Of a DNA stretch of 45,347 nucleotides, positions 5,818-45,347 are shown piece by piece. Below the pieces are notes generated by a model. That model saw nothing but the letters and a program-made list of their open reading frames with translations. It did not search any database and was not told the DNA's origin. The stretch lies in IMG/VR virus record IMGVR_UViG_3300006803_000028, positions 1 to 45,347 of that record; one strand, written 5' to 3'. Every line of letters begins with the position of its first letter. The first letter of the stretch is position 1. This DNA is from a virus. The position numbers were made by a program, and so were the translations under genes.

Positions 5818-5830
5818 TTTTATATATTAG
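5818..5830 (-). promoter_or_regulatory. Candidate late promoter before the internal-protein gene
   Basis: The minus strand reads CTAATATATAAAA. The TATATAA core ends 18 bases before the ATG at 5801 and overlaps the stop codon of the tail-tube-like gene. It is one of the best copies of the recurring motif. With a start site about 6-8 bases downstream of the core, the leader would be only about 10 nt. This is inferred from repetition, not measured. Confidence 0.5.
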
Positions 5831-6381
5831 ACCACATTAACAACAACATCTAAGATGTTATAACCAAAAGTAATATCAAAAGTTTGAAATTCAATAGTAT
5901 TACTTGAAAAATTTAAATCTAATGCGCCTACTTCAGAAATAAACATATCTTTTAATTGAACAGTTACAAATACAGTTCCATCAGCATCAAGCATTTGTAC
6001 ACCAACACCTTCTGGTAAATATGGATGCTTGCCACTTAATTTATAATAATAATCAAACATTTCTACTGCCATCCAATAATTTACATAACCATCAAATGCC
6101 TGCATTGTAACAGTCATAGTCTTATCAAACAATTGTTGCTTTGGTAAGCTAGCTCTAAATGCTCTTTGATTACCTGGATAATCTACTTGAGTAACAGCAT
6201 CAAATGAAGGGCCTGGTAAATTTAAAGATTGTATTCCATAATTCCAATAATCAATAGGTTCTTTAATTAGCCCACCAGGAATTCTAGTAAGAAAAGGTTT
6301 ATACTTTTTAGCAATTGGCTCAGGTATAAAATTTCTTGGAAAATCAAATTTAAATTGATTATTTCTTGCACTTAATATCAT
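5827..6381 (-). CDS. Tail-tube-like protein (gp19/gp54 type fold)
   Basis: Probably forms or caps the inner tail tube. The 184 residues show the pattern of contractile-tail tube proteins: an N-terminal arm, SLNLPGPSFDAV (about 52-63), a strand-helix unit KTMTVTMQAFDGYVNYWMAVEMF (split across about 87-109), and a closing beta pair around GALDLNFSSNTIEFQTFDIT (about 152-171). The ending FDITFGYN resembles the last strand of tube proteins, where F(D)hxFxYD is common. T4 gp19 has 163 residues. It sits at the end of the fibre region instead of beside a sheath gene, so it might be a specialised tube or baseplate-tube component. The ATG overlaps the upstream gene's stop by 4 bases (ATGA). The gene is certain; the role is moderately supported. 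Confidence 0.6.
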   Translation of the reverse strand: MILSARNNQFKFDFPRNFIPEPIAKKYKPFLTRIPGGLIKEPIDYWNYGIQSLNLPGPSFDAVTQVDYPGNQRAFRASLPKQQLFDKTMTVTMQAFDGYVNYWMAVEMFDYYYKLSGKHPYLPEGVGVQMLDADGTVFVTVQLKDMFISEVGALDLNFSSNTIEFQTFDITFGYNILDVVVNVV

Positions 6382-7262
6382 AATAAATTATTTTTAAAAT
6401 CTCCATCACCGAAGAAACTTTTGCCTATTGTAAAATTTTGTAAATTTCTAGCAGCTTGTCTAAAAAATAATCTGCTTCTCCTACCAGTTCTTGCAGATCT
6501 TGCAGAAACCTTAAGTGCGTCTACTTGTTGTCTTCTTTTTAATTGAGCATTAGCAAATGATTGAGCATTTTTTGCATTAAGAGTAATGGTATTATTAAGA
6601 CTTCCAATTTCAGCTGATAATCTTTCTACCTCATTTGTTAATTCTAAATTACTTTGTTGTAATGCTTGTATTGTTAATAAATCCTCTGCTGCTGAATTTA
6701 CCAATTCTGCGTTCTCTGCTTTAAGAAGAGTATTCTCATCTTGTAATTTTGCTAACTCAGTACTATATTCTATTCTTTGGTCTTCTATTTGAGAAGTTAA
6801 TGTAGTTCTATTTGCAGCATCAGCAGCTAACCATAAACCTTGATAAAGAACAGATTGATCTGAAGCAGATTCATCAATTGGATCTACCATTTTAGAAGAA
6901 ATATAAAAATTATTATTATCTAATGCTAAAATCTTTTTACTATCGGATCTACTAATTTTAAATAATACTTGCCCTTGTGATAAATTAACTTCTTCAACCT
7001 GAGTATGATTTTTTATATCTATATCATCACTTGATCCAATAAAGTTAATAAAAATATCCCCTACATTACTTAAATCTATAGGTGTATCTTCTCCGCCTAT
7101 TTCATCAAATAATGTAAATAGAAAGAAATCATCAAACGGTGTTATTCTAATTGTAGCATCACCCTGTGGTAATGGTTCTTCATTAACAGATAAATTAACA
7201 AATCTTTGATAATATTGTTTCTCTGTGGAATTTAATGCTATGTTAGTTTCTATCGAAGGCAT
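6378..7262 (-). CDS. Virion structural protein with coiled coil and basic C-terminus
   Basis: Unrecognised. The first 150 residues are beta-rich and acidic (motif PFDDFFLFTLFDEIGGEDTP near 42-61). A long heptad-patterned coiled coil follows (about 155-235, rich in Glu, Leu and Asn), then a strongly basic segment (KVSARSARTGRRSRLFFRQA, about 251-270) and a short Gly/Phe tail. This layout suits an elongated trimeric or dimeric tail appendage or an adaptor. It lies at the downstream end of the tail/fibre operon and overlaps the tube-like gene by 4 bases, and the next upstream gene ends 12 bases away, so it is co-transcribed with structural genes. The basic patch could contact nucleic acid or an acidic partner; that is speculation. 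Confidence 0.7.
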   Translation of the reverse strand: MPSIETNIALNSTEKQYYQRFVNLSVNEEPLPQGDATIRITPFDDFFLFTLFDEIGGEDTPIDLSNVGDIFINFIGSSDDIDIKNHTQVEEVNLSQGQVLFKISRSDSKKILALDNNNFYISSKMVDPIDESASDQSVLYQGLWLAADAANRTTLTSQIEDQRIEYSTELAKLQDENTLLKAENAELVNSAAEDLLTIQALQQSNLELTNEVERLSAEIGSLNNTITLNAKNAQSFANAQLKRRQQVDALKVSARSARTGRRSRLFFRQAARNLQNFTIGKSFFGDGDFKNNLL

Positions 7263-7274
7263 ATCTATAATTTA

Positions 7275-8678
7275 TTATTCATTTACAGCTGAGAACGAAT
7301 CATTATTAGAATCATCTGAATCATCTGTTATTGTTTGTATTTTTACTGGTGAGATAGCAGCTTTAACTTTTATTCTATCTCTAAATGTAGTTACATAGTT
7401 TACTTTAGTTACTAACTTCTCTACTATTTGTTCAGAGGTATCTACATTTAAAGTATCACTTCTACCTCCACCTACAACAATTTGGTTGCCATTATCATTA
7501 TTTACTTGGTTATAAACATTTGCAACAGTTGGCACTACCCCTAAATTTATAGTAAGCATTTGCGGTCCATATTTTTGAGCCTCAAATGAAGTCAACTTTG
7601 CATTCTTTAAAATTTGTGTAGCATCAACTCTATTATATAATCGTAATACATAATTAATAGAAAAAGATATTGCACTATTTGCATTTTTAATTATTGGTCT
7701 AAATAATATAGGTTCATCAAAATCTGTAGTCTGTGTAAACACTTGAAAGCTAGATTGATTAAACGTTGTACCTATTTGCTCAGTAACACTTATTTCATGA
7801 AACACTGTATAATTTCCACCAGATGAATTTAACTGAGCTATAAAATTACTAAACGTTGATCCTGCTACTTGCCCTGACAATTCAAAATAATCACCTGCGG
7901 TTGAAGGTTTTATTTCAGCATATAAATTATCATAAATATCTCTATTTAATATGGACACAGAATTAATTTCTTGCATTTCATAAAAACTGTATGCATTCTC
8001 TACAATAGTTTGAAAAATACCAGTTGCTCTTAATGTAATTGGTGGTGTTCCTAAAAAGCCTTGTCCTTCAGTTATCTTATATGCTAAACCATTTGAGTCA
8101 GATGTAGTAAAAGCATTATTCATATAAAATAAAGAAGGGACTCTCCATTCAATAAATGTTGCATATAAATTATCTCCTAATAATAAAGGGTCAGGGTTAA
8201 ATGTTGGAGTATCACTTTTTAAGAAGTTAATTGAACTTAAGTTCATCATAACCTCATCTCTCCTAGGAGCTAATACTTCAAATACTATACCATCATAATT
8301 TTCAAAATTAAATCCAGCAACAAAATGAATTCTTATTTTGTCATAGACTACATCTAGCTGTGGATTAAATGTTTGTAAAAGATTAGCACTATCTGTTAAT
8401 GCAGGACTGTAATCATTATAAGGAACACCTATATCTGTATCGAGAGAAACATACTGAGTTCTTGTTTCATTATTAGACACAGCGGAACCATCCCTCTCAT
8501 TTCCCATAACACCAGCCACAGTATCAGTATTAAAAAAATATGTACCTTTAGTATTAGCGTCTCTCATTAATTCAATAGGGTAATTAGCCGTATTAAATGT
8601 AACGGGAGTTGCTTGGCTTGCATAAGTATACTCTATAAGTATTTGCTCCGATATTTGTATAAACCTTGATGATTCCAT
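7275..8678 (-). CDS. Hypothetical virion structural protein (467 residues)
   Basis: I do not recognise a family. The sequence has the low-Lys, Asn/Thr/Ser-rich, beta-strand-prone composition of tail or fibre proteins, with no transmembrane segment, no catalytic motif and almost no Cys. It ends in a very acidic Asp/Ser-rich stretch (DDSDDSNNDS about 453-462). Aromatic-rich beta segments recur, such as FIEWRVPSLFYMNNAF (about 172-187). It lies between the membrane-anchored coiled-coil gene and the coiled-coil structural gene, in the same run as the large fibre genes. It is probably a receptor-binding or baseplate-periphery component. No Shine-Dalgarno sequence precedes its ATG. Confidence 0.65.
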   Translation of the reverse strand: MESSRFIQISEQILIEYTYASQATPVTFNTANYPIELMRDANTKGTYFFNTDTVAGVMGNERDGSAVSNNETRTQYVSLDTDIGVPYNDYSPALTDSANLLQTFNPQLDVVYDKIRIHFVAGFNFENYDGIVFEVLAPRRDEVMMNLSSINFLKSDTPTFNPDPLLLGDNLYATFIEWRVPSLFYMNNAFTTSDSNGLAYKITEGQGFLGTPPITLRATGIFQTIVENAYSFYEMQEINSVSILNRDIYDNLYAEIKPSTAGDYFELSGQVAGSTFSNFIAQLNSSGGNYTVFHEISVTEQIGTTFNQSSFQVFTQTTDFDEPILFRPIIKNANSAISFSINYVLRLYNRVDATQILKNAKLTSFEAQKYGPQMLTINLGVVPTVANVYNQVNNDNGNQIVVGGGRSDTLNVDTSEQIVEKLVTKVNYVTTFRDRIKVKAAISPVKIQTITDDSDDSNNDSFSAVNE

Positions 8679-28357: not shown

Positions 28358-30211
28358 TTAATTATTTAGATTTTCAAGTGTTGGGGAATTTTCTAATCTA
28401 CCGGTATTCAGTCCTCTGGCATTTGTACCTGTCGCAATTGTAGTTCCTCTATTTCTTTGAACTTTATTATATTTTTCTTGTTGAATTTTATTGTAAAGAT
28501 TATCAGCAATAGCTTCTTTATAAAATACATTAAGTGAACTAATTTTATTAGCTTCTGGGATCGGTTCATAATACGTACCATTCCTATCTTTCCATCCACC
28601 TCTAATAATTGCTAAATCATTATTATCAATAACAATATCACCAAAACTATCTAAACCTATATTAGGATCTTCTCCTTCTTTTAATACTATCTTTTTATTT
28701 TCAATTAATACCTTTTGATCCGTAACAGGGTCTGTGCCATATACTGGAACAAAATAAAAACCATCTCTTATTGCTTGTTCGTTTGCTTCTGATATAAAGA
28801 ATACATTTACAGAATCAATCCCTTCTACATTTTCAATAATTGAAATAATGTCAGATCTTGGTATTCTATCTCTTCTATTAACATTTAAAAAATAATCATC
28901 TAAATTTTTTCTTATTGCTATTCTTATTTCATCTTTATCATAATTATCAAACCATCTTATAACTATATTAAGAGCGTATCTTTTAATAATAGGATCTATT
29001 ATTCTAGTTTCAGCAGTAACTACTTGTCTTCCACTAGAATTTAATATCTCGTAAGTCATTTCTTTTTCATCAGCAGTCATAATAAATTCTATTTCAGGTA
29101 TACTAAAATAATCAAAATCACTAGTTATTTTCTTTTTTATATCTGGAATTAAGAAAAGGTAAATAATATTATCATCATTTAAATATTCATCATTTTTAGT
29201 ATTATAAGCATCTATGAAAGACCAAAAGTCATACTTACTTAAATAGTAAATATAATTATTAGGATTTGCTAATACAAATGAATTACTTTGGTATGGTGCA
29301 ATTAATCTAGTAAATGCTGGATCTTCACTATTAGATCCAAACATTGGATTTCTTGTAATGTTAATGGAAAGAATTTCGTTTAAATCTACTTGCTCACCAG
29401 ACTGGTCTGTCGCTGGTGTTGAAAATTTTAAATCCAATTGCTTACCTCCAATATTTCCTGCAGTTCCTCTAGTCGTTACATAAGTACATTTAATACGAGA
29501 ACCTAATGCAGGAGGCCTACCAAATTGATTATTTCCAAAAAATATACTTAATCCACCGTTAACACTAGTTTTTACCATTACTGTCTTTTCACCAGGACCC
29601 ATATCATACAAAGAATCAACATTTTTCCATAGTTCACCATCAACATTAACGCTTACTAAAAATTGATCAGTAGGGCTTTTTGTAGTTAAGTTATAACTTT
29701 GTAATGTTAACCCACTACCAGTAAATGATTGGTCTTCTTTTTCACCTTCTATCAATTCAACATTAACAAATTCTGTATTACTTTTAGTTAATCTTATAAA
29801 GTCACTATTGAAATTTAAAAAATAAGTTAATCCGTTTTGGCCTAACTCACAAGATGACCCATTCATAATTTGTACATAATCACCAGTAACAAGAGTAGAT
29901 GCACTGGTATTTAATCTTAATCCAATTATACCTCTTGCTGATATACCTCGAGTAGGATCATGGCCTGTTAATCTAGATAATCCATATATAGATTCAATAT
30001 TTCTTGCTCTCGAAATATTTAGTTCTGTAGCAACTGCCTCTATGTAGAAAAATATTAATTCTCCTAAATTAGAAACCACGGTTAATATTTGACCATAAGG
30101 GGAAGCAGGAGTAAATGTTTCAACTGCTTGGCCATAGGTACGCTGCAAGTATTCAAATGAATCTTCAAATAACTGAGTGGCCTTTATTCTTGTTTTACTA
30201 AAAAATGACAT
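28358..30211 (-). CDS. 6: Baseplate wedge protein, T4 gp6-like (Baseplate J family)
   Basis: Forms the ring that holds the wedges around the hub and changes shape on infection. The 617 residues (T4 gp6: 660) show Baseplate-J features: an N-terminal helical part with LSRLTGHDPTRGISARGIIG (about 74-93), a beta sandwich with DYVQIMNGSSCELG and FGNNQFGRPPALGSRIKCTY, and a C-terminal region with DRIPRSDIISIIENVEGIDS (about 456-475), which matches the common R..I..s.i...i..i.gV.sv pattern. The extreme C-terminus is Asn/Gly-rich and likely flexible. It is encoded 13 bases after the gp25-like gene, the arrangement seen in many contractile injection systems (gp25 next to gp6). Confidence 0.85.
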   Translation of the reverse strand: MSFFSKTRIKATQLFEDSFEYLQRTYGQAVETFTPASPYGQILTVVSNLGELIFFYIEAVATELNISRARNIESIYGLSRLTGHDPTRGISARGIIGLRLNTSASTLVTGDYVQIMNGSSCELGQNGLTYFLNFNSDFIRLTKSNTEFVNVELIEGEKEDQSFTGSGLTLQSYNLTTKSPTDQFLVSVNVDGELWKNVDSLYDMGPGEKTVMVKTSVNGGLSIFFGNNQFGRPPALGSRIKCTYVTTRGTAGNIGGKQLDLKFSTPATDQSGEQVDLNEILSINITRNPMFGSNSEDPAFTRLIAPYQSNSFVLANPNNYIYYLSKYDFWSFIDAYNTKNDEYLNDDNIIYLFLIPDIKKKITSDFDYFSIPEIEFIMTADEKEMTYEILNSSGRQVVTAETRIIDPIIKRYALNIVIRWFDNYDKDEIRIAIRKNLDDYFLNVNRRDRIPRSDIISIIENVEGIDSVNVFFISEANEQAIRDGFYFVPVYGTDPVTDQKVLIENKKIVLKEGEDPNIGLDSFGDIVIDNNDLAIIRGGWKDRNGTYYEPIPEANKISSLNVFYKEAIADNLYNKIQQEKYNKVQRNRGTTIATGTNARGLNTGRLENSPTLENLNN

Positions 30212-30224
30212 TTACTTTATTATT

Positions 30225-30596
30225 TTAAAAAAGAGCTCCTATAACTCTTTGTTCATTTACAAAGATATCAACAAAAGCCCCGTTCCTTCCTTCATTAGTA
30301 AAAAACTTTACTTCAGATTGAACATTATAATTACCAGTTCCTGGCAAACAGAATGCGGAAATTTGACCATTAATTCTTTGTTGTATAGTGTTAGCATTTA
30401 ACGTTAATGAAAAAATTAATTCATCTAAATTACATCCCATTCCTGGACTTCCTAAAACTTCACCTTTCCTAGTAAATAAAACATTATCTATTTTAATGAT
30501 TAATTGAGATAACCCATCGGTAACTTCTAATGTATCATCATTAAACTTAGGAGCATCAGCGCTTCTACTATAAATATCTCTTATTCCTCCGCTCAT
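30225..30596 (-). CDS. 25: Baseplate wedge protein, gp25-like
   Basis: Small wedge protein with the gp25/lysozyme-like fold that joins gp6 to the sheath. The 123 residues (T4 gp25: 132) carry the family pattern: DGLSQLIIKIDNVLFTRKGE (about 28-47), GSPGMGCNLDELIF (about 50-63), and a C-terminal beta segment VDIFVNEQRVIGALF. The LFT-kGE-P-G-G stretch is the hallmark that starts polymerisation of sheath in T6SS, R-type pyocins and phages. In these baseplates the family is structural, and lysozyme activity is not expected. Two TATATAA motifs lie upstream (at 21 and 39 bases), suggesting that it heads a transcription unit with gp6 and the following wedge genes. Confidence 0.9.
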   Translation of the reverse strand: MSGGIRDIYSRSADAPKFNDDTLEVTDGLSQLIIKIDNVLFTRKGEVLGSPGMGCNLDELIFSLTLNANTIQQRINGQISAFCLPGTGNYNVQSEVKFFTNEGRNGAFVDIFVNEQRVIGALF

Positions 30597-30614
30597 CTGA
30601 AAGCACTAATTTTT

Positions 30615-30643
30615 TATTATATATTCTCTTTTTATTATATAGC
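30615..30643 (-). promoter_or_regulatory. Tandem candidate late promoters before gene 25
   Basis: The minus strand carries two copies of the motif 18 bases apart: GCTATATAATAAA (core at plus-strand 30635-30641) and GAATATATAATAAAAA (core 30617-30623). The proximal core ends 21 bases before the gp25 ATG. They lie in the 60-base gap between genes, one of the few non-coding stretches in this region. Two copies in one gap argue for function; use as promoters is inferred. Confidence 0.5.
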
Positions 30644-30656
30644 TTTCAGATTATAA

Positions 30657-31520
30657 TTATCCTGTGAAAAAGTAATCAACACCTTCGTCTCCTTTAATTT
30701 CTTCAACTATTCTATCAACTTCTTCTCTTCCTTCAGATTGTACTAAATCATAATTAATTGTAATGTTACCTGGAAGATTAAATGAAAAGGTTCCTAGTAT
30801 TCTAGATAATTGAATTTTAGCTTGACCTATAACATATCTTTGGAATGCTTCATCCTCAAATAATGCACAATCAGGAATGGTAGAAAATATTTCAAATATA
30901 ACTGCATTTTTAGGAAGCTCTCCTTGAAATCTAAACTTCTTGGTTAATCTATTAAACGTATATGATATTTGTGGTAAAAGAACTTGTCTTGCATTATCCA
31001 TAAATAATGAATTAACAACATAGTACATTAAATTTTCACTACCTATACCTGCGCCGTAAACATCATCATATATAAATTTGTCAATTGAAAAATCTACATC
31101 ATCTGCATTAAAGCTCATTTGACCGAATCCACCATCTTCTCCACTAAATCCACCAATCTCAAATACATCATTAACTGAATAAACCCTAGAAGGCATTTTA
31201 ACTATACCTCTAGGATTATCAATATTGCCTTTATTAGTTATAGTTTCTTTGTCTTGTCCTTTTCCGTAAGGTACTCCTTGTTTAAAGGATGGTTTATGTA
31301 AAGCACCTGCAGGTAAGGCAATATACATTTGCTCTACACTATCTTCATATATTTTATAAAAATATTTTTTTGCTCTTTGTATAATATTGTTTATTTCCTT
31401 TTTAGGAACTGTGAATGGAATTTGACAGGCAATAGTTAGTTCATCATTAACTAATTTAATTAATTCATCTAAACATGCAGCCTCACCTGGATCATTACAA
31501 TAAGTATTCTTGTTAGCCAT
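30657..31520 (-). CDS. Virion structural protein upstream of gp25 (287 residues)
   Basis: I do not recognise a named family. The N-terminal half is helical (LIKLVNDELTIACQIPFTVP, about 20-39, and IIQRAKKYFYKIYEDSVEQM, about 47-66), the middle is Gly-rich (FEIGGFSGEDGGFGQMSFNA), and the second half is beta and helix mixed, with FQRYVIGQAKIQLSRILGTF (about 224-243). It ends in acidic VDRIVEEIKGDEGVDYFFTG. Proteins of this plan occur next to baseplate genes in distant T4-like phages, so a neck, tail-terminator or baseplate role is likely. It is separated by 6 bases from the amidoligase-like gene and lies just before the gp25 promoter region. Only a structural role can be inferred. Confidence 0.6.
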   Translation of the reverse strand: MANKNTYCNDPGEAACLDELIKLVNDELTIACQIPFTVPKKEINNIIQRAKKYFYKIYEDSVEQMYIALPAGALHKPSFKQGVPYGKGQDKETITNKGNIDNPRGIVKMPSRVYSVNDVFEIGGFSGEDGGFGQMSFNADDVDFSIDKFIYDDVYGAGIGSENLMYYVVNSLFMDNARQVLLPQISYTFNRLTKKFRFQGELPKNAVIFEIFSTIPDCALFEDEAFQRYVIGQAKIQLSRILGTFSFNLPGNITINYDLVQSEGREEVDRIVEEIKGDEGVDYFFTG

Positions 31521-31526
31521 ACTATT

Positions 31527-32819
31527 TTATATTTTTTCTATTTCAATTATTTCTGTATTTTCAAACCTTGCCATTTTAGTAGCTCTACCTTTTCTAAAAA
31601 TACCACCTTCCATTTCTCCACTAAATACTCCTCTAGGTCCAAAGACATAAGAATCTTTACACATTACATTTTTACTAACATAAGAATCTTCTATCTTACA
31701 ATCAGCAGCATCAGTTGCACCAAATAAGTTACTCTCAAATAAAGATGAATTTACTAGTTCTGAACTAAAGACATCGCAATTCAAAATGTTACCTTGAATT
31801 TTACAGTCTACAATATCAATTCCTTTTATTTCAAAACATCTCATCAGTTCTGCATTCTTTAATTGCATTCTACCAGTATCAGCATCATAGTTAATTAAAC
31901 CTTCCTTTAACCCAGCTAAAGTTAAAAGCTTAAAAACTTCTTCTCTCATTTTAGGATAAAATGTTTCAACTATCTGATCATACGTTTGAAGATCAACCAT
32001 TAATTTTATCTTTGGAAATTTTTTCTTAAATGTTTGATAGTCTTTATAAGATTCAACTATACTACTATGCTTTTCTAAAACAACATCTAATTGTTTAATA
32101 TCTTTATCTGTATATTGAGGATACATTAAAGTTTCATATAATGATATAACAAAATGTTCTGTTAAATTCATTATTGTATTATACTTCTTTTCGTAATCTT
32201 TTCCACCAAGATATCTAAATTCAATATAATTCTTAGGTAACTTAGAAAAGTTTACACCATAATACTTTTCAGATACAAACATATAATTTTTCCATGAAAC
32301 TTTTTCAGGTGAAGGTTGAGTCATTCCACTTAAAGGAACAATAAATTTTATTGACTTAGCATAAACAGAATCTTTTCTGTTAGGAAATGCTTCATAAATT
32401 TTATTCTCATCAAAATTTAATACGAATTTACCAATATCTAAACTTGATACATTTGTTGGTGTACCTAATTTCTTTCCATCAAAAGCTACATTGATATGAA
32501 TAGAACATCGTTCATTAGTAGACCCATTTTCACGGATCCATTTTAAAGTTTTTGCAATAATAAGTTTTGATTCAACAAACGGCATTGGTCCAGTAACCAA
32601 TTCAATCATTCCGGTTCCACCAGAATTATCAGGCTCTAATTTAAATGTTTCATTGCTAGGAGTAAAATCACTATGAGCCTTTTCCTCTATTTGTATTCTT
32701 TTATTTAAAGCATTAGAAAGACTTCTTTTAACCTCTTCTACTCCTTCATTGGCAAAGAATTCAAATTCTAATCCAATCTTGGATGCATATATAGCATTTA
32801 ATTGTTCGTTAGTGTACAT
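31527..32819 (-). CDS. Amidoligase-like (glutamine-synthetase fold) protein with pentapeptide-like C-terminus
   Basis: Looks like a member of the GS-fold amidoligase group (Pfam Amidoligase_2 type), enzymes thought to form amide bonds using ATP. Motifs appear in the expected order: GLEFE (residues 16-20), DNSGGTGMIELVTGP (64-78, acidic residue then E73), CSIHIN (105-110) and YIEFRY (198-203, the E-x-R strand). From about residue 320 the sequence changes to short repeating units with alternating Cys/Asp/Ser and bulky residues (GIDIVDCKIQGNILNCDVFS, 333-352, and onward to about 420), as in pentapeptide or right-handed beta-helix repeats. Such helices often mediate trimerisation in tails. Substrate is unknown: a virion protein, host peptidoglycan or a small metabolite are all possible. 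It is encoded between the S1-like gene and a structural gene, with its own TATATAA motif. Confidence 0.65.
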   Translation of the reverse strand: MYTNEQLNAIYASKIGLEFEFFANEGVEEVKRSLSNALNKRIQIEEKAHSDFTPSNETFKLEPDNSGGTGMIELVTGPMPFVESKLIIAKTLKWIRENGSTNERCSIHINVAFDGKKLGTPTNVSSLDIGKFVLNFDENKIYEAFPNRKDSVYAKSIKFIVPLSGMTQPSPEKVSWKNYMFVSEKYYGVNFSKLPKNYIEFRYLGGKDYEKKYNTIMNLTEHFVISLYETLMYPQYTDKDIKQLDVVLEKHSSIVESYKDYQTFKKKFPKIKLMVDLQTYDQIVETFYPKMREEVFKLLTLAGLKEGLINYDADTGRMQLKNAELMRCFEIKGIDIVDCKIQGNILNCDVFSSELVNSSLFESNLFGATDAADCKIEDSYVSKNVMCKDSYVFGPRGVFSGEMEGGIFRKGRATKMARFENTEIIEIEKI

Positions 32820-32859: not shown

Positions 32860-34002
32860 TTATGCTATGTTCATTGTAATCTTACGATCACTAACATTCA
32901 CACTACCAATTTTTACATTTATTGTATCACCTTTGCTTAAATCGGCACCCTTTAGCTTAGACTTATGAATTAAACCACTAATACCTTTCTCTAATTCAAC
33001 AAAGGCACCATAAGAAGTAATCTTAGTAACTTTACCTTCAGCTATCATCATAGGTTTATATTTTTCATCTATCCCATCCCACAAGTCAATTTTAGGACCT
33101 AATTGACTTAATATAATTTTTCTATCAGATATAATTTCTTTAACCCAGAATTCTATTTTGTCGCCCGGTTTAATAGACCTATCATCTAAAGATTTTTGGA
33201 ATTCTTCAGTTAATTCTGCTTTAGGTATTAGTCCAGTTAAACATTCATCAAATTCAGCAAATACACCAAACTTAGTAGTACCTGTTACAAAACCAATTCT
33301 AGATTCTTTTATAGTTTCATTTAAGTTTTCAATTGTAGTAGGAATCATAGTTCTTAAATATTCTCTATGAGATACCACTAATGTATCTTTTTCTTTAGAA
33401 AATGTTATTGGCATAACAACTATTTCTTTACCTACCAATACACTAAAATCGTGTAATTTATTTAATCCTCCTAATGAACCTGGCATAAAACATTTAATAC
33501 CTGCAACATCTACCCAATAACCCCCATGAATTAATTCTTTAACCTTAGCAGTAAAACCTACAGCTTTATTACCAATTGCTTCTTTAATTTCTTTTAACTT
33601 AACTTCTTTAATTGCATCAGATATAGAAGCAATAACATCTCCAGTTTTTGGGTTTGTTTTGATCTTAACATCAATTTCCATATCTACCTCTAATTGATTT
33701 ACAATATAGTCATGTTCTTTGGTTAAAGTACAGTAAGCAGTAAATTTAGATTCTATGTCAATTAAAGCCTTTGATTTATCTTCTGATATAAATGATACAA
33801 TACCCCTAGTGGTATATGAAACATTATCTTCAATTAATTGTGTCTTTTGTAAAGTTGAATCGGTAAGACCGTATAATGATAAAGCATCAGCAGCATATAT
33901 TTCATTACACATTAATTTTGTGCCTTCAGGAACTTGAACTTTTATTGTTTTAGTATCAAATGGATCATCACTCAATTGAACTGTGATTTCTTGTTCGGTC
34001 AT
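32860..34002 (-). CDS. Ribosomal protein S1-like protein with four S1 domains
   Basis: Predicted RNA-binding protein made of four OB-fold S1 repeats: about 64-130 (divergent), 148-213 (GFTAKVKELIHGGYWVDVAG, then CFMPGS), 235-300 (GFVTGTTKFGVFAEFDECLT, then GLIPKAEL) and 319-380 (GKVTKITSYGAFVELEKGIS, then GLIHKSKL). The last is the best match to the bacterial consensus GxVxxixxyGaFVxl..gxxGLxHxS. About 60 N-terminal residues precede them. Host bS1 normally has six repeats, so this is a shorter, phage-specific version. S1 recruits mRNAs that lack Shine-Dalgarno sequences; nearly all genes here lack them, so I infer that the protein helps load phage mRNA on host ribosomes. A role in RNA decay or transcription antitermination is possible. 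It lies oddly among baseplate genes. Confidence 0.85.
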   Translation of the reverse strand: MTEQEITVQLSDDPFDTKTIKVQVPEGTKLMCNEIYAADALSLYGLTDSTLQKTQLIEDNVSYTTRGIVSFISEDKSKALIDIESKFTAYCTLTKEHDYIVNQLEVDMEIDVKIKTNPKTGDVIASISDAIKEVKLKEIKEAIGNKAVGFTAKVKELIHGGYWVDVAGIKCFMPGSLGGLNKLHDFSVLVGKEIVVMPITFSKEKDTLVVSHREYLRTMIPTTIENLNETIKESRIGFVTGTTKFGVFAEFDECLTGLIPKAELTEEFQKSLDDRSIKPGDKIEFWVKEIISDRKIILSQLGPKIDLWDGIDEKYKPMMIAEGKVTKITSYGAFVELEKGISGLIHKSKLKGADLSKGDTINVKIGSVNVSDRKITMNIA

Positions 34003-34028: not shown

Positions 34029-34042
34029 GATTATATATTTGT
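34029..34042 (-). promoter_or_regulatory. Candidate late promoter before the S1-like gene
   Basis: The minus strand reads GTACAAATATATAA, with the TATATAA core (plus-strand 34031-34037) ending 29 bases before the S1-like ATG. The 83-base gap between the small Gly-tailed gene and the S1-like gene otherwise holds only AT-rich sequence and no clear terminator. The leader has no Shine-Dalgarno sequence and runs into an A-rich start context (AAAAAATAAAAAATG). Promoter use is inferred. Confidence 0.42.
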
Positions 34043-34085: not shown

Positions 34086-34385
34086 TTATGAAATTGCTGT
34101 TCCTGGTGTACCAGTCCCAGCTCCAGTACCAGTCCCAGGTCCACCACTAGTTGCTACAACAGTTGTAACGGCAGTAGTAACTGTCGCTGTTTTAATCCAA
34201 GCATCTATTGCAGCAGATGCTTCTTCACCAAAAGTTGCACCAGCAGCAGTCCTAATAGCAGCTTCAGATTTTACTTCCTTTAGTGCCTTAACATTTATTT
34301 GTGCTTCATCATCTAATGTTTTTAATCCTGCTGCAAACGCAGCAGCTAAATCAGCTTTAAGTTTTTCAGTTTGGAGTGTTGCCAT
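34086..34385 (-). CDS. Small conserved-type phage protein with Ala-rich helix and Gly/Thr tail
   Basis: A 99-residue protein. The N-terminal 55 residues are Ala/Lys/Glu-rich and helical, followed by FGEEASAAIDAWIKTATVTT (about 52-71), then ATSGGPGTGTGAGTGTPGTA with a final IS. The plan of an Ala-rich helix, AIDxWIKxATVTT, then a Gly/Thr repeat ending in PGT-I is one I associate with small proteins encoded beside spike or hub genes in several tailed phages. Its function is unknown to me. It directly follows the gp5-like spike gene, where many contractile systems encode a tip (PAAR) protein, but no PAAR motif is present. A TATATAA motif sits 20 bases before its ATG. An overlapping plus-strand reading frame is rejected because it is antisense to this gene. 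Confidence 0.65.
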   Translation of the reverse strand: MATLQTEKLKADLAAAFAAGLKTLDDEAQINVKALKEVKSEAAIRTAAGATFGEEASAAIDAWIKTATVTTAVTTVVATSGGPGTGTGAGTGTPGTAIS

Positions 34386-34402: not shown

Positions 34403-34416
34403 GTTTATATATTAGT
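34403..34416 (-). promoter_or_regulatory. Candidate late promoter before the small Gly-tailed gene
   Basis: The minus strand reads GACTAATATATAAA, with the core at plus-strand 34405-34411, ending 20 bases before the ATG at 34385 and overlapping the stop of the gp5-like gene. A second partial copy, CTATAAAC, follows. Strong copy of the recurring motif; activity inferred. Confidence 0.48.
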
Positions 34417-35329
34417 CAGTTGTATTCTTTGTACTTAATGCAGGATTTCCTGGTGCCATTGGCGGACTGGTTGGTGCACCATGATTTCCAATATGAGTAT
34501 GGTTATTATAAAGATCATTGATAAACTGAGTACCTTTAAGTACAGCATCGGTTCCCTGTTCACCTAAAATAATCTTAGGAGAATTTACATGAGTTTTACC
34601 GGTAGCACTTATAACAGCATCAACACAATTAATAAGACAATTAGTATCTGCATTAATTACAGTATCAGCTCCACTATTAATTGTAAATTGAGCAGAATGA
34701 GTAAATGTTATATTTCCATCATTAAGCATTACAATTGTATCACCATTTGCATTTATTACTTCAACTGAATTATCAGGTTTTATATTAATAGTGGTTGGGC
34801 CTTCTGTTGTAGTATAGTCCATCATTATACCTTTTTCTTCTGTAAAGAAAATCTTTACATGTTCGCCTTCTCTATCATTTGTTACTTCTGAAACACCATC
34901 TTGTAACTCACCAGTTAAACCGAATGCTGTATCATATATTAATACATGTGAATTTTGATATGAGGCTTCTATCTCTGCCTTTGTTTCATCTGAAGGGTAT
35001 ATGTTTTCATGATATACCGGTTGATAAAAATTTCCATTGTCAAATGTTACTCTAACTATAGATCCTAATTTTGGTATTTCAAATTTACCGCTACCAGTAT
35101 TACTACCACCATACATTAACTGATGAGGTCTTGACCATGGCAGCGAGGCAGTTGGAATAATGTATGCACTTTGTGGATCTTCAGGATCTACACGATCATC
35201 CATTTTTCCATATACTCTTATCTTACATCTACCTTCAAAGATATCATCATTACTATCCTCGACAATTCCTACCCATTGAGTAGTTCTTAAATTATCGGCG
35301 TTAAACTGTTTTGGATCTACCTTTCCCAT
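34412..35329 (-). CDS. 5: Baseplate spike protein, gp5/gpV-like, without lysozyme domain
   Basis: Central membrane-puncturing spike. Residues about 18-115 form the OB-fold typical of gp5/gpV/VgrG (WVGIVEDSNDDIFEGRCKIR, then GSGKFEIPKLGSIVRVTF). Residues about 135-265 are a beta-helix of alternating residues (TINIKPDNSVEVINANGDTI and onward, with INCVDAVISATGKTHVNSPK). The C-terminal NNHTHIGNHGAPTSPPMAPG (about 274-293) carries an HxH motif like the metal-binding tips of gpV-type spikes. T4 gp5 has 575 residues with a lysozyme domain between the OB-fold and the helix; here 305 residues leave no room for it. The ATG overlaps the stop of the repeat-tailed gene by one base. Wall penetration must use another enzyme or none. 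Confidence 0.85.
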   Translation of the reverse strand: MGKVDPKQFNADNLRTTQWVGIVEDSNDDIFEGRCKIRVYGKMDDRVDPEDPQSAYIIPTASLPWSRPHQLMYGGSNTGSGKFEIPKLGSIVRVTFDNGNFYQPVYHENIYPSDETKAEIEASYQNSHVLIYDTAFGLTGELQDGVSEVTNDREGEHVKIFFTEEKGIMMDYTTTEGPTTINIKPDNSVEVINANGDTIVMLNDGNITFTHSAQFTINSGADTVINADTNCLINCVDAVISATGKTHVNSPKIILGEQGTDAVLKGTQFINDLYNNHTHIGNHGAPTSPPMAPGNPALSTKNTTD

Positions 35330-36897
35330 TAGTCAAATACATTTTCATTACCGCCTAAAGTAGAAGGTATTGGTCCAGATGGAGGAAATGCAGGCGTTGA
35401 TTGTAAACCTGATCCTACAGGTGGTACTGGTGGAAATAAATCAGTTGATTGTAAACCTGTTCCAACAGGTGGTACTGGTGGAAATAAATCAGTTGATTGT
35501 AAACCTGTTCCAACAGGTACTGCTGGATCAAAATTTTGTGTTGATTGTAAACCTGTTCCAACTGGTGTAGCTGGATCAAAATTACCAAAAGATTCAAATG
35601 GTGGTTCACTGACACTTTCTGCGAATAAAGCATCACCTATTTTTTGAGTTGTATTTCTACTGCCAACATCGCTAAGAGTACCTGGTATAGCTGCACCTAA
35701 TGCTGCATTTGCTAATGCCTGTGGATTTGATATAGAACTTAATAAATCATTTCTTGCACCAAACACATTACCAAATGTGAACCCTGAAATTATACTTGCA
35801 CCAGCTCTACCTGCTAAATTAATTGCTCCCTCTACTTGACCCATTACTTGATCCTTACCAAATTGTTTTAATTTACCTAGAAAACCTGGGTCGGTACTTC
35901 TCTGTAATTTACTTTCATCTAATTTACTGTCATAGCCAGAAAATTGAGAAACATTTTCCATTACAGCATAACTAAATTTAATTTCAGTTGATGCAATATC
36001 TGCACCAGCATTAGTAACCCCGCCAAATAATTTACCACACGCAGCTGCATCCCATTCACATTCTCTAAATCTAAATCCAACTTGTGAAGTATTTTCATTT
36101 ATAAAATCATTCCTATCTTGTGTATTCAAAGCCCCAATACCTGCCCCTAACCAATTCCTAACTGTTTGAAATTTTCTAATTTCTTGTACATAAACATAAA
36201 CATCGAACCTCATTAAATTTTTAGGCAGAACAAACCTCTTATGCATATTATCATAAACAGCCATTTTATATAAATTAAATAATGCTGTCATTTTTAAATC
36301 TAAAGCTTCAAGGCATCCAATAATAATACCTTCTCCTGGTACTGTTCCTTGATAAGGGTCTATATCAAAACTTGAGGATTTTTTCCAAGCATCTTCTAAT
36401 CCTACTATTGTTTGAAAATAATAAGGTCTTGTTTTATTAACTTCTTGAATACCTTGGATAAATGCTTTTAAATAATTTGCTCTATTAGTTTCACCAATTT
36501 TTTCTAAGTATGCAACGGCTGAAGGTTCAGACGGATTAGAACTACCGCCACTAGGAGGAGATTCTAAGTTAGTTGTAAGACCTTCTGTTGTAGTATCACC
36601 ACTAACAGTTGATGGATTAGTTGGTACAGTAGCTGGTATGCCGGTATTACCAGATGTTGCCCCATTGAATAAAGGGCTTTTAATATCAAACATTAATGTA
36701 AATCCAAGATAAGTAGGATCATCCATTGAAGTAACCCCATTGGTACCAGAACCGTATGCACTTTCAGATGCTACAAATCTTTTGGCAAATTCATAACTTC
36801 TTGGAAATGTACCACCTCCTAAGTATGAACCGAAAGGTCCAGCTAATTGAGCTAACCCATCACTACCGAAAGGACTTCCTAAATCTATTAAAGGCAT
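35329..36897 (-). CDS. Baseplate/tube-associated protein with C-terminal 16-residue repeats
   Basis: A 522-residue protein encoded between the hub- and spike-like genes. The N-terminal region has DDPTYLGFTLMFDIKSPLF (about 59-77), followed by a Pro/Ser/Gly-rich linker (about 85-125). The central domain contains FVLPKNLMRFDVYVYVQEIR (about 223-242) and later EIKFSYAVMENVSQFSGYDS, strand patterns typical of tube-like baseplate proteins, so a gp48/gp54-type role is possible. Residues about 443-506 are four 16-residue repeats of the type PVGTGLQSTDLFPPV. I have no family name. A motif related to the late promoter (AATAAATATAA) lies 14 bases before its ATG. The repeats are Pro-rich and probably form an extended flexible arm. 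Confidence 0.65.
   Translation of the reverse strand: MPLIDLGSPFGSDGLAQLAGPFGSYLGGGTFPRSYEFAKRFVASESAYGSGTNGVTSMDDPTYLGFTLMFDIKSPLFNGATSGNTGIPATVPTNPSTVSGDTTTEGLTTNLESPPSGGSSNPSEPSAVAYLEKIGETNRANYLKAFIQGIQEVNKTRPYYFQTIVGLEDAWKKSSSFDIDPYQGTVPGEGIIIGCLEALDLKMTALFNLYKMAVYDNMHKRFVLPKNLMRFDVYVYVQEIRKFQTVRNWLGAGIGALNTQDRNDFINENTSQVGFRFRECEWDAAACGKLFGGVTNAGADIASTEIKFSYAVMENVSQFSGYDSKLDESKLQRSTDPGFLGKLKQFGKDQVMGQVEGAINLAGRAGASIISGFTFGNVFGARNDLLSSISNPQALANAALGAAIPGTLSDVGSRNTTQKIGDALFAESVSEPPFESFGNFDPATPVGTGLQSTQNFDPAVPVGTGLQSTDLFPPVPPVGTGLQSTDLFPPVPPVGSGLQSTPAFPPSGPIPSTLGGNENVFD
35380..35571 (-). repeat. Four tandem 48-bp coding repeats
   Basis: Four copies of a 48-bp unit encode 16 residues each with the invariant core PVG(T/S)GLQST followed by a variable two-residue spot and F(P/D)P. 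The second and third copies (counting from the left) are nearly identical at the DNA level, indicating recent duplication by slippage. They stay in frame, so only protein length changes. Copy number is likely to vary between related phages. Confidence 0.85.
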
Positions 36898-36908
36898 ACT
36901 ATATTATT

Positions 36909-36922
36909 TTTTATATTTATTA
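36909..36922 (-). promoter_or_regulatory. Weak late-promoter variant before the repeat-tailed gene
   Basis: The minus strand reads TAATAAATATAAAA, resembling the T4 late promoter TATAAATA as much as the local TATATAA form. It ends about 12-14 bases before the ATG at 36897 and overlaps the stop of the hub-like gene. Support is weaker than for the exact copies. Confidence 0.25.
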
Positions 36923-38422
36923 GGTCGTAGGCGTGAACTCTCGACGCTGTAATTTTAATCTCATTTTAAGCTGTTCACTATTAACACCTGTACCATTAGA
37001 ATAAAAATATGTAACACCAGTTACAACATAAAATCCCGTTAGGTATTCATTTAAAATAAAACTAGCTTCTTCATTATTTAAAAATTCTTCTGATTGTCTG
37101 GTTTGAGGTTCTATGTCACCTTCAATTTCACCTAAAGAAGGTTGTAGTAAAGCAGTTTTTGCATCATCATTATATTCTAAAACTAAACAATAAATTCTAC
37201 TATATCTTACTATACCTGGATTCACTGTCTGTAATTCTACAGTCATTCCCATCTTATTAATTTCAGTATTATTTTGATAATTTAATACTGTGCTATATTG
37301 AAACTCAGAATGTACATTATCGCCTTGTGTACCTAAATATTTATATTTAACTTGTTCATTTCTTGGGCCTTCTGTTTCACCATTTAATATCCTACCTTTT
37401 GTTGCAGGTATCATACCAGGAGTATCATTAGTAAAAGGATCAACAAATTCACTGACCCATTCCTTAGCTTCTAGATCCCAATACTGTGTATATCTTTTAT
37501 AACCATTTGCTTTACTAATTTTGCCTGTATTATTTGTTAATTGAAAGGAACTCATATATCTAGAGTTTCCTTGCATCTGCACTAAATTAGTTAATATATT
37601 TGGCATTGTAGTTTCTTCACTTACAATATCCTCAGTAAAGGTATCTGCAGAACCTCTCATAAAATCTTGACTTATTTCAATTGCACCTTCTTGGCTAAAT
37701 AATCTATTTACATCAACCATTGTCAAATAATAATATGGATCAATATAAGAAGTAAAAAAACTTTCATCATTTAAATAACTATTAGATACTATGTTTTGTA
37801 TCCAAGTTTCATTGGTATCATTAGGATTAGTCCAAGTCATCTGGTCGGCAGTTTCTTCAACATTAGATGCATAACCTAATTTTAGTTTTTCTGCAATATT
37901 TAATAAAGCATCCCAGCTTGTAACATTTTCCTCATAAGATACATTTTCAGTAAATAGATTAGGAATAAACATTCTACCCGTAAGTAAATATTCATTAGCA
38001 ACTAATCGACCACCACCTGCATTACCATTAATTGGCTTACATTCAATAATAGTAAAATCTATTCTTATAGGCTTAAATGTAGTTTCATCACCTTGGGATC
38101 TGATGTTTATTTTAATGATATCACCATCCTTAGGGTAAAATCTACTAGTAAACATATTGTCTCTATCTGCAAATATTAATTTAATAGTTGGATAAAAATC
38201 TTCATTCTTTACCTCAAAGTAGCGTAATTTAGTAAAGTCTACTTCATATCCATTTACTATAACATAAGGAACTATAGAAGAAAATTTAGATGGCCTAACT
38301 TCCATTGCTAGCCCGTTTGAATTATCTGAATTACTTTCTCTATCTAATATAGTAAGAGCATCTAATTCTATAGTAGGCTCTATTATTGTTAATATATTTC
38401 TTTCAACTATACTTTCAGACAT
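36920..38422 (-). CDS. Baseplate hub protein, gp27-like
   Basis: Probable hub subunit that joins the spike to the tube. The 500 residues include a beta-rich first domain (KLRYFEVKNEDFYPTIKLIF, about 65-84, and DGDIIKINIRSQGD) and the region SWDALLNIAEKLKLGYASNV (about 168-187) followed by ADQMTWTNPNDTNETW. This NxAxxLxLGxAxN...W.NP...W pattern is common in hub proteins of distant T4-like and jumbo phages. A C-terminal beta domain carries SRIYCLVLEYND. T4 gp27 has 391 residues. It is encoded 3 bases after the gp53-like gene and 22 bases before the next, within the hub/spike cluster, which supports the role. Sequence similarity to T4 gp27 itself is not visible. Confidence 0.65.
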   Translation of the reverse strand: MSESIVERNILTIIEPTIELDALTILDRESNSDNSNGLAMEVRPSKFSSIVPYVIVNGYEVDFTKLRYFEVKNEDFYPTIKLIFADRDNMFTSRFYPKDGDIIKINIRSQGDETTFKPIRIDFTIIECKPINGNAGGGRLVANEYLLTGRMFIPNLFTENVSYEENVTSWDALLNIAEKLKLGYASNVEETADQMTWTNPNDTNETWIQNIVSNSYLNDESFFTSYIDPYYYLTMVDVNRLFSQEGAIEISQDFMRGSADTFTEDIVSEETTMPNILTNLVQMQGNSRYMSSFQLTNNTGKISKANGYKRYTQYWDLEAKEWVSEFVDPFTNDTPGMIPATKGRILNGETEGPRNEQVKYKYLGTQGDNVHSEFQYSTVLNYQNNTEINKMGMTVELQTVNPGIVRYSRIYCLVLEYNDDAKTALLQPSLGEIEGDIEPQTRQSEEFLNNEEASFILNEYLTGFYVVTGVTYFYSNGTGVNSEQLKMRLKLQRREFTPTT

Positions 38423-38425
38423 ATC

Positions 38426-38962
38426 TTAAGAATTATTATTACGTATTGGTAAATTTGCACCTAAGGTTATATTTCCTCCTTCGTATATTTTAGATTCTTG
38501 GCCTTGTTGTAGCACATTAGGAGGTATAGGTGTATCAACACCGCTCTTTTTTGTTTTTGCTTTTTCTATTAATCTTTGTATTCTGGCTTGATCTTTTTCA
38601 CTTTGTCTATCTGTATTAACATAATCCTCTAAAACAGGGTTAGGTCTAGACGCAGCATTAGGTCTACTATAAACCGCTGCTAAATCAGACAAGTTAGGAA
38701 TAATTATAACATCTCCTTCATTTAATGAAAAAGGATTAAATATATTATTAACTATACAAAGAGCATCCACATAATCACTTTTACCAAAATATTGAAGTGA
38801 TACTTTATCCATTCTTCCTACTTGATCCTGCTTAATATAATGTAATGCCTTAACACCCAGCTCTGTCTTATATCTAAACGAAGGAGCAGTTAAATCAAAA
38901 TACTGCTGACCAGTTCTTTCAATTGTCAATTTATTTTTTAAAGTAAGAGATTTAATATTCAT
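38426..38962 (-). CDS. 53: Baseplate protein with LysM-like domain, gp53-like
   Basis: A 178-residue baseplate component. Residues about 45-92 form a LysM-type fold: GRMDKVSLQYFGKSDYVDAL (49-68), CIVNNIFNPFSLNEGDVIII (69-88), then PNL. The R-x-D-x-(L/V)-S...YFG...Y...L...N.I.NPF.L..GD.I.IP pattern is that of gp53/LysM tail proteins. In T4, gp53 (196 residues) anchors wedges to the hub. The C-terminal third is charged and helical, then Pro/Gly/Asn-rich (INNNS-like tail). Neighbours are the hub-like gene and a conserved baseplate/tube gene. The gene symbol is given by analogy; a gpX-type LysM tail protein is the alternative. Confidence 0.62.
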   Translation of the reverse strand: MNIKSLTLKNKLTIERTGQQYFDLTAPSFRYKTELGVKALHYIKQDQVGRMDKVSLQYFGKSDYVDALCIVNNIFNPFSLNEGDVIIIPNLSDLAAVYSRPNAASRPNPVLEDYVNTDRQSEKDQARIQRLIEKAKTKKSGVDTPIPPNVLQQGQESKIYEGGNITLGANLPIRNNNS

Positions 38963-43135: not shown

Positions 43136-45347
43136 TTATACGATACAATATTCCATTCTCCATTTAATAGACCATGGGCCACTAACATCTAATGTAATTG
43201 GGTTCCCTCCAGTATCTTCTACTTCATAACTAAATCCTAATTTAAAGATATCGTTACGAGTCATAGTAAGTGGATCAGACTCTAGAGTAAAACTCCATGA
43301 ATATGCTCCTAATGGACCAGGAATAGTATTAGGTGCTATTTGATATGAAGTATTATCTATAATTGTAGCAGTAGGAGAAGTTGTTGGTGTAGCAAGTCCA
43401 GCAGTATTTGGTACAACATCAAATTTCTTTACTGATATTCTAACTCTACCTAAATAAGTAGGATTAGATACTTGATCCGACATCCAAGCCAATGCAGTTA
43501 CTCTTATAAAACCTCCAGTCAAATCCCCACCTGGTGTTGCTTGGCCATGAAACCCAGAATCTAAAACATCTTCCGTGTTAAAATTATCTGTTTGAGCCGT
43601 CTCCATTTGATAGTATACTTGAGTTGATGCATTAGGTGAACCCCAGTCAGGAACATTACCACCTACTGAATATTTACCATTACTTAGACCTCCACCATTC
43701 CAATCAGGTACGCTAGCCCTATATCCTGAAAATCTTTCTTGTAATAATGTTGATTGGCCAACTACTGCACCTTGTGAACCTTGCGGACCAGTTAAACCTT
43801 TATTACCATTTATACCCCAGCCAAATAAAGGTTTACTAAACGTAGTAATACCTGATCCTCCTATATAAGAACCTTTAGCTAATTCTATACCACCACCGGC
43901 TCCATTTGTAGTTGTAATATTAAAATATTCAAATTCATAATAATTTACTTTATGTGGATCACCATATTCCCAAACTCTAACAAAAGCTTTATTTTCAGAA
44001 GCTGTGACTGTTGAATTCCAGGTTGAGTATACTGTATTGTTATCCTGATAATCAATTGAATTACCAGTTTCAGGATCATTACCTTCAGCAGCTAAAAAGA
44101 ATGTTTGCGAACCTGTTACCCAATTAACTGCTGTGTTAATTGCTTTGTTAGCTTGGAATGCACCAGGCTGGGCAGCAGCAGCATTATTATATACTGTAAG
44201 ATATCCTCCGTAATCACCCGCAACACCGGTTGCACCAGTTGCTCCTAGTACTATACCAGTAGATCCTTGTTGACCAGTTAATCCTGTGGCTCCTTGTGTT
44301 CCTGTAGCTCCTTGTAATCCTATAGCACCTTGTTCTCCATTAGCACCTTGTCCACCAGTTGCACCTTGTAATCCTACAGCACCATCAGCACCAGTTGCGC
44401 CTTGTTTACCAATAGCACCCTGTTCACCGTCAGCACCTTGTGTTCCAGTTGCTCCTTGTTGGCCTATGGCACCACTTGCTCCTTGTCCACCTATGGCACC
44501 TGTTGCACCTTGTTGGCCTGTTAAACCTGTTGCTCCTTGTGTACCTGTTGCACCCTGTGTTCCTGTTGCTCCTTGTCCACCTATGGCACCTGTCGCACCT
44601 TGTTGGCCTGTTAAACCTGTTGCTCCTTGTGTACCTGTTGCACCTTGTGTACCTGTTGCACCTTGTTCACCAACTGCACCAGTTGCTCCTTGTTGACCTG
44701 TTAAACCTGTTGCTCCTTGTCCACCTATTGTACCAGTTGCTCCTTGTTGGCCTGTTAAACCTGTTGCTCCTTGATTACCTACAGCACCGCTTGCTCCTTG
44801 TCCACCTATTATACCAGTTGCTCCTTGTTGGCCAGTTACTCCAGTTGCACCTTGGATACCTACGGCTCCAGTTGCACCTTGTAATCCAGTGGATCCAAAC
44901 AGCCCATCGCTTCCAGGTTCTCCAGTTGCTCCTATTGTACCGCTTGCTCCCTGTTGACCAGTTGGACCTAGATCACCTGTAGCTCCTTGTTGACCAACTG
45001 CACCGGTTGCACCAGTGGATCCTGTAAGTCCACTTGCACCTTGTCCGCCTGTTGCACCTTGAGTTCCTGTTGCTCCCTGTAATCCTGGATCACCTTCTGA
45101 ACCTTGTGTACCTGTTGCACCTTGTGTACCTGTTGCACCTTGTGTACCTGTTGCACCAATACCTCCTTTTATTCCTGTCGAACCAATAAATCCAGTAGCT
45201 CCTTTAAAACCATCACCACCTTGAGTACCAGTAGCACCTTGTTGACCGATAGCACCAGTTGAACCTGTAAACCCAGTTGATCCCTGAGTACCTGTTGCTC
45301 CTTGTTGGCCTGTTAAACCTGTGGCTCCTTGGTTACCTACAGCTCCA
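43136..45347 (-). CDS. Collagen-like fibre protein, 5' end beyond the window
   Basis: At least 736 residues, open to the right edge. I read the frame codon by codon from the stop at 43136 to 45347 and found no internal stop. From the edge to about 44255, Gly occurs at every third residue without a break (about 121 triplets), of the type GATGxQGATG: rich in Thr, Ala and Gln and nearly free of Pro. One phase slip (GIVLG) lies near 44243-44257 before the collagen ends. The C-terminal ~360 residues are a globular, aromatic beta domain that may bind the receptor or trimerise the helix. A start at the internal ATG 43606 would cut off the repeats and is rejected. Likely a tail or capsid fibre. Confidence 0.85.
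44225..45347 (-). repeat. Collagen-like Gly-X-Y coding repeat
   Basis: A 9-bp periodic region (plus-strand TCC/ACC/GCC glycine complement every ninth base) with exact phase from 44255 to 45308 in all positions I checked. Glycine is coded by GGA, GGT and GGC in mixture, so DNA repeats are imperfect although the protein period is strict. Higher-order units of 18, 27 and 90 bp are visible. The antisense strand yields long Pro/Cys/Leu-rich frames that are by-products of this repeat. Confidence 0.92.
44481..44660 (-). repeat. 90-bp tandem duplication inside the collagen repeat
   Basis: Positions 44481-44570 and 44571-44660 are nearly identical 90-bp direct repeats (30 residues, ten Gly-X-Y triplets). 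They differ at a TGTTGC/TGTCGC site, a CACCC/CACCT site and at the last few bases. This high identity among otherwise diverged triplets points to a recent in-frame duplication that lengthened the fibre. Confidence 0.8.

Follow-up and report, generated by a model that had tools for sequence, protein, structure and literature searches.

A phage-lineage relative of ribosomal protein bS1 with a possible role in translation initiation

Bacteroidota start translation without Shine-Dalgarno (SD) pairing, and bS1 is the main suspect as the substitute. The locus investigated here raises the question of what a phage does with a bS1-like protein of its own. The window, i.e., the whole stretch of 45,347 nucleotides that was analysed, is a 45-kb linear IMG/VR fragment with all large ORFs on the minus strand, and its genes at low coordinates encode a T4-like UvsW helicase, a primase, a gp32-like SSB and a RuvC-like protein. 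As synteny with a 181-kb relative (G001) spans nearly the entire window, the source is probably a jumbo myovirus; it is marine and probably infects Bacteroidota. This host, implied in a preliminary description of the sequence, is the most likely one given the Bacteroidota-type bS21 described below, the A-rich SD-less starts and the cultured relatives, which come from Tenacibaculum, Chryseobacterium and Prevotella. Elsewhere in the window, Gly-X-Y repeats at 43607-45347 (minus strand) point to a collagen-like protein that the end of the contig apparently truncates, and the 294-aa product of 6378-7262 matched the RRXRR family below threshold (19.5 bits versus 25).

Domain composition of the phage protein

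The boundaries of the S1 ORF are exact, with the ATG at 34002 and the stop at 32860, and the encoded protein divides as follows.

32860..34002, minus strand: phage bS1-like protein of 380 aa, in which an N-terminal segment specific to the phages precedes D1-D4 of bS1
33832..34002, minus strand: N-terminal segment (residues 1-57), made up of a pair of strands and a pair of short helices; Tyr36 invariant, Tyr44 conserved
33607..33831, minus strand: D1-like OB-fold, residues 58-132; Asp82/Lys86 correspond to E. coli Asp39/Lys43
33355..33567, minus strand: D2-like OB-fold, residues 146-216, with bS1 D2 as its sole match and the highest domain conservation within the phage family
33094..33315, minus strand: D3 OB-fold, residues 230-303, aromatic pair kept; closest to bS1 D5/D4
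32863..33063, minus strand: D4 OB-fold, residues 314-380, a canonical S1 domain

The protein had been described as a shortened bS1 with four S1 OB-folds, the last nearest to the consensus, and our searches bear this out. The Pfam S1 model matched the 380-aa protein at 6e-22, with two repeats passing singly (D3 with 37 bits and D4, the most canonical S1 domain, with 48 bits). D1 and D2 have diverged beyond the reach of Pfam; every bS1 family model picks both up (best 5.6e-40, residues 66-379), and they fold as beta-barrels in AlphaFold (mean pLDDT 82), in whose model the relative domain placement is unsure given a pTM of 0.49. Using phmmer, phage residues 58-351 aligned with residues 17-310 of E. 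coli bS1 collinearly and without rearrangement (1.2e-29), and residues 51-368 aligned with 39-352 of the bS1 chain in 9zcd (2.6e-26), which we took to be that of Flavobacterium johnsoniae because 9zcd and 7jil have the same bS21 sequence. Domain-specific HMMs assigned phage D1 to bS1 D1 (weakly), D4 to D4 and D3 to D5/D4. D2 (GGYWVDVAGIKCFMPGSL), the most bS1-specific repeat, matched bS1 D2 at 28-35 bits with the next domain at 7 bits or less, and its conservation is the highest in the protein (0.85).

A grouping with RNase, PNPase or Nus proteins, named beforehand as the result that would speak against bS1, was seen neither with NCBIfam nor with the domain HMMs or Foldseek. The top eleven NCBIfam models are all bS1 (5.6e-40 to 4.7e-20, up to 137 bits), and the margin of the bS1 models over every non-bS1 model is about 78 bits. 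PNPase (7.5e-11, 41 bits) and RNase R (1.7e-9, 37 bits) also matched; on these scores an affinity to either enzyme was rejected, and so was one to NusA, which has no model among the matches. The best PDB match in Foldseek, at E 5e-23, was the bS1 of 9gut, a '30S mRNA delivery complex', with weak NusA fold matches in addition. In Pfam, NCBIfam and Foldseek we found no best similarity to the S1 domains of RNase, PNPase or NusA, nor to their catalytic or KH domains, and PHROGs yielded no family for the protein. All bS1 equivalog cut-offs were missed (137 bits versus 624, 130 versus 524 and 129 versus 368); as no curated cut-off is reached, we term the protein bS1-related rather than bS1 proper. 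Compared with bacterial bS1 (E. coli, Flavobacterium), it shares the D1-D4 order, a bS1-type D2 and the equivalents of Asp39/Lys43, but is missing D5 and D6, has another N-terminus and a D3 without the RNA-binding His, and is about 20-26% identical in structure and profile alignments. Tyr331, Phe334 and His346 of D4 are invariant across the close clade, and D3 carries an invariant Pro260 at the usual His position, sites that we take to be RNA-binding positions of S1 domains.

D1-D2 form the ribosome-facing pair of E. coli bS1. Asp39 and Lys43 of E. coli D1 contact uS2, and the N-terminal helix with Phe5/Phe9 is essential for uS2 binding (PMC4288201). The Asp39 equivalent, Asp82, is kept in 29/30 close relatives and the Lys43 equivalent, Lys86, in 30/30, or in 13/13 proteins when huge phages are counted; D1 conservation as a whole is weak. 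In sequence, phage residues 1-57 resemble none of the bS1 N-termini compared, including the anchor helix of E. coli. The AlphaFold model places a helix at residues 37-43, flanked by the conserved Tyr36/Tyr44, and this element could be analogous to the E. coli uS2 anchor.

Relatives, gene neighbourhood and a second ribosomal protein

A profile scan showed that at least 580 viral contig stretches encode S1 relatives; close relatives were retrieved separately from 66 viral loci. Relatives in INPHARED are the metagenomic phages LR7565xx and LR745206 (0.46-0.74 Mb) and the Prevotella Lak phages; judging from their sizes (735 kb), the LR7565xx records are presumably the huge phages of Al-Shayeb et al. 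The S1 of LR756500 has 46% identity over 96%. A DNA-level search of INPHARED gave no match, and no prophage or host copy of the phage S1 was found in a protein search of genome contigs. The tree places the window S1, the S1s of the 0.46-0.74 Mb phages and those of Lak in one clade (support 100/100), separate from Bacteroidota, E. coli, mycobacterial and Clostridia-type bS1. The clade is an ancient, single lineage apart from the sampled cellular bS1; as the tree samples few bacterial phyla, it speaks for one old phage lineage and not for where S1 originated. In the comparison with Bacteroidota bS1 proposed in the preliminary description, a tie to that group's bS1 emerges from neither tree nor scores. 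With a dN/dS of 0.08-0.13 between close relatives, S1 is a strongly conserved core gene under purifying selection. The S1 of the 'gut phage' MT835478 was set aside, being read as a bacterial bS1. Three contigs labelled Lentimicrobium, Limnohabitans and Chlorobiota (L196, L211, L245) carry Flavobacteriaceae-type bS1 (85-97% identity), which is probably MAG contamination.

The surroundings of the gene comprise the following features.

28358..32819, minus strand: downstream conserved structural genes, encoding a 430-aa protein, an Ad2-like head-tail adaptor and gp25-like and gp6-like baseplate wedge proteins
34412..38962, minus strand: upstream conserved structural genes, including baseplate hub/lysozyme-like and baseplate wedge-like proteins
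34030..34037, minus strand: TATATAAT promoter-like box, beginning 35 nt upstream of the S1 start codon

We retrieved 80 loci via the neighbouring adaptor gene, 7 of which stop before the S1 position. In all 73 with sufficient upstream sequence, S1 lies beside the adaptor in the baseplate operon, which agrees with its earlier placement among structural genes. Gene order around S1 is the same in LR756500 as in the window. Other genes flank S1 in the 0.63-0.74 Mb relatives and the Lak phages, an arrangement that speaks against its depending on a baseplate partner. Positions 5827-8678 of the window encode a 184-aa and a 467-aa protein whose homologs adjoin S1 in LR756504 and/or LR756501 (0.64-0.74 Mb), so S1 has changed gene blocks. 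The 430-aa protein (31527-32819), adjoining S1 in the window clade, has relatives in huge phages and a weak match in Agrobacterium phage Atu_ph07. Directly upstream of S1, a 99-aa ORF (34086-34385) is present in 7/68 related loci at ~95% identity, and we read it as a possible recent insertion or fast-changing gene.

The late-type motif noted earlier is real and conserved: the TATATAAT box, TATATAA(T), stands 31-39 nt before the S1 ATG in 31/33 relatives. Between genes, its heptamer core favours the sense strand (8:1 in the window, with further counts of 30:6, 8:0 and 10:3). In G001, it precedes 8 of 22 structural-block genes as opposed to 21 of 142 elsewhere (Fisher p = 0.03, with an analyst-chosen block boundary), a modest signal. 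The box looks like a late promoter of this phage group. Because S1 lies in the structural block behind a conserved box that is commoner there in G001, it would be expressed late, with the structural proteins. A T4-type TATAAATA box was considered as well and rejected, being absent from the window's intergenic regions and without sense bias in the 181-kb relative.

A second ribosomal protein accompanies S1 in many relatives. The Pfam bS21 gene is present in 11/18 partial relatives, several others being too short to reach its position, and in LR756501, LR756502, LR756504 and LR745206; LR756500 and both Lak genomes searched gave no match. In G001 the following gene lies ~25 kb upstream of S1.

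G001:114138-114287: bS21 (in locus L165), beside tRNA-Leu and tRNA-Arg genes

From this spacing, the bS21 of the window phage would lie outside the fragment. Bacteroidota-type bS21 with Tyr54 also occurs in other relatives (L158, L340-L347). The closest solved relative of the phage bS21 is that of the F. johnsoniae ribosome (7jil), with Tyr54 aligned, a residue that helps to hide the anti-SD.

Translation starts and leaders

We scanned starts for a 4-nt SD core at -20..-4, using -60..-44 as control stretch together with shuffles. For every ORF the first ATG served as the start, so that some starts are misplaced, equally in every genome. SD cores occur at 3/32 starts in the window (9%), compared with 9% in the control and 8% in shuffles, so that the near-absence of SD described earlier is confirmed as background level. 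The corresponding values are 2% in G001, 0% in LR756500, 60% in T4 and 26% in crAss001, the last against 18% in its control and thus little signal. Tenacibaculum phage pT24, a Bacteroidota-host phage in whose genome neither S1 nor bS21 was found, has 0% SD. The proposed tie between S1 and missing SD is therefore unsupported, as phage S1 is not required for SD absence, which is most likely a host trait judging from this one host-matched control phage.

The starts of G001 show an A peak at -15 to -11, as in F. johnsoniae, and D4 of bS1 has been located near mRNA positions -12 to -15 (PMC6847099). The A content at -16..-10 is 0.67 for late genes and 0.62 for others (p = 0.24), i.e., no late-specific leader signature was found. 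As late leaders do not differ from the others in this respect, the earlier suggestion that S1 steers ribosomes to late mRNAs is unsupported.

A possible role in initiation and its alternatives

On balance, we lean slightly towards reading the gene as a phage-lineage bS1 paralog with a part in starting translation during the late phase of infection. Phage S1 would be produced together with the structural proteins, and D1-D2 with the phage N-terminal segment would dock near uS2 on the host 30S. D3-D4 would then hold unstructured A-rich leaders around their -15 to -11 peak, which may serve Bacteroidota ribosomes in place of SD pairing. In this way phage S1, alongside phage bS21 on host 30S subunits, might provide or substitute for the loosely attached host bS1 at a time when ribosomes are contested by many phage mRNAs. 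The effect would be more initiation on SD-less A-rich mRNA generally, since the leaders give no sign that S1 distinguishes late phage mRNA from other mRNA. Docking, exchange and any phage-mRNA preference are predictions. In F. johnsoniae, bS1 is bound loosely, and supplementary bS1 leads to two-fold initiation on SD-less mRNA by its ribosomes (PMC9976891), so that an additional or substitute bS1 could plausibly be of advantage once phage mRNA abounds. The bS1 order of D1-D2 followed by two mRNA-type OB-folds, with a canonical D4, supports the initiation reading, as do the invariant Lys43 equivalent, the purifying selection, the fixed place in the structural block behind a conserved box and the bS21 of relatives; against it count the want of a recognisable Phe5/Phe9 helix, the weakly conserved D1, the missing tie to Bacteroidota bS1 and leaders that carry no late-specific signature.

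The want of a recognisable bS1 anchor helix, with OB-folds of RNA-binding type well kept (D4 above all), would also suit a bS1-derived protein that serves as an RNA chaperone or protects mRNA, covering A/U-rich transcripts of the phage and melting structure or blocking RNases without stable 30S docking, and Al-Shayeb et al. admit a role 'on or off the ribosome' (PMC7162821). A pure RNA binder could dispense with D1-D2, however, and these are retained, with D2 the most conserved domain and the Lys43 equivalent invariant; we regard such a protein as unlikely. Quite improbable, in our estimate, is a dominant-negative S1 that takes the uS2 site, displaces host bS1 and stops host initiation. The absence of D5-D6 and the altered D3 (His to invariant Pro) mean that the protein could bind without full function, but blocking S1-dependent initiation would hurt a phage whose own starts are SD-less and A-rich, and a position in the structural module is late for host shut-off. 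A virion protein, either a baseplate or injected part with structural OB-folds or one that enters with the DNA to act immediately, would explain the fixed position within the baseplate block in the window clade and LR756500; it is made similarly improbable by the other gene neighbours and inconstant baseplate partners in the 0.63-0.74 Mb relatives and Lak, and by sequence and RNA-binding residues that fit bS1 and not phage hub OB-folds. A transcription-side factor, e.g., an antitermination or NusA-like protein, is hardly credible, as the S1 domain of NusA and the weak NusA fold matches stand against NCBIfam matches that include no NusA and put bS1 far ahead of everything else.

Returning to initiation, a more far-reaching version, which we put forward as possible though doubtful, is a two-part platform of Bacteroidota jumbo phages. 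Its bS1, passed on by vertical descent and consisting of D1-D4 and an anchor peculiar to the phages, would join a bS21 with Tyr54 in remodelling the site of mRNA entry on the 30S subunits of SD-blind host ribosomes while virions are being made. As relatives encode this second ribosomal protein, the phage may adapt host ribosomes to its own mRNAs. A conserved phage bS1, often beside phage bS21 in relatives, is in any case a natural probe of SD-free initiation, and can be put to a direct test with the in vitro system of F. johnsoniae.

Al-Shayeb et al. (2020) reported that huge phages encode S1 proteins and have few SD sites, and the idea of phage S1 in translation was already published there (PMC7162821). 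The window protein, from the same clade as the LR7565xx phages, with SD-poor starts and the same proposed role, is a better-resolved example in terms of domain homology, putative docking residues, operon place, promoter-like box and bS21 partner. The one host-matched control phage shows here that the S1/SD link is unnecessary. This weakens the published argument, as SD scarcity in S1 phages need not reflect S1, and the correlation may be a host effect. Effectively the same protein, 89% identical and 380 aa long, is A0A7S9STL2 of Virus NIOZ-UU157 (UniProt, S1 motif domain-containing protein); the literature that we found on this virus concerns abundance only, with no functional study of A0A7S9STL2. 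The Bacteroidetes phages with bS21 that Chen et al. described in 2022 (PMC9723584) share the Tyr54 bS21, the myovirus type and the Bacteroidetes host, and their late-stage ribosome take-over model resembles the present proposal; bS1 is unmentioned in the main text of that study, and here, unlike there, bS21 lies near tRNA genes ~25 kb from S1. Cyanophage PhiMa05 likewise encodes a bS1 homolog (PMC13157829), but in our tree this protein falls among cellular bS1 on a long branch, apparently representing a separate acquisition.
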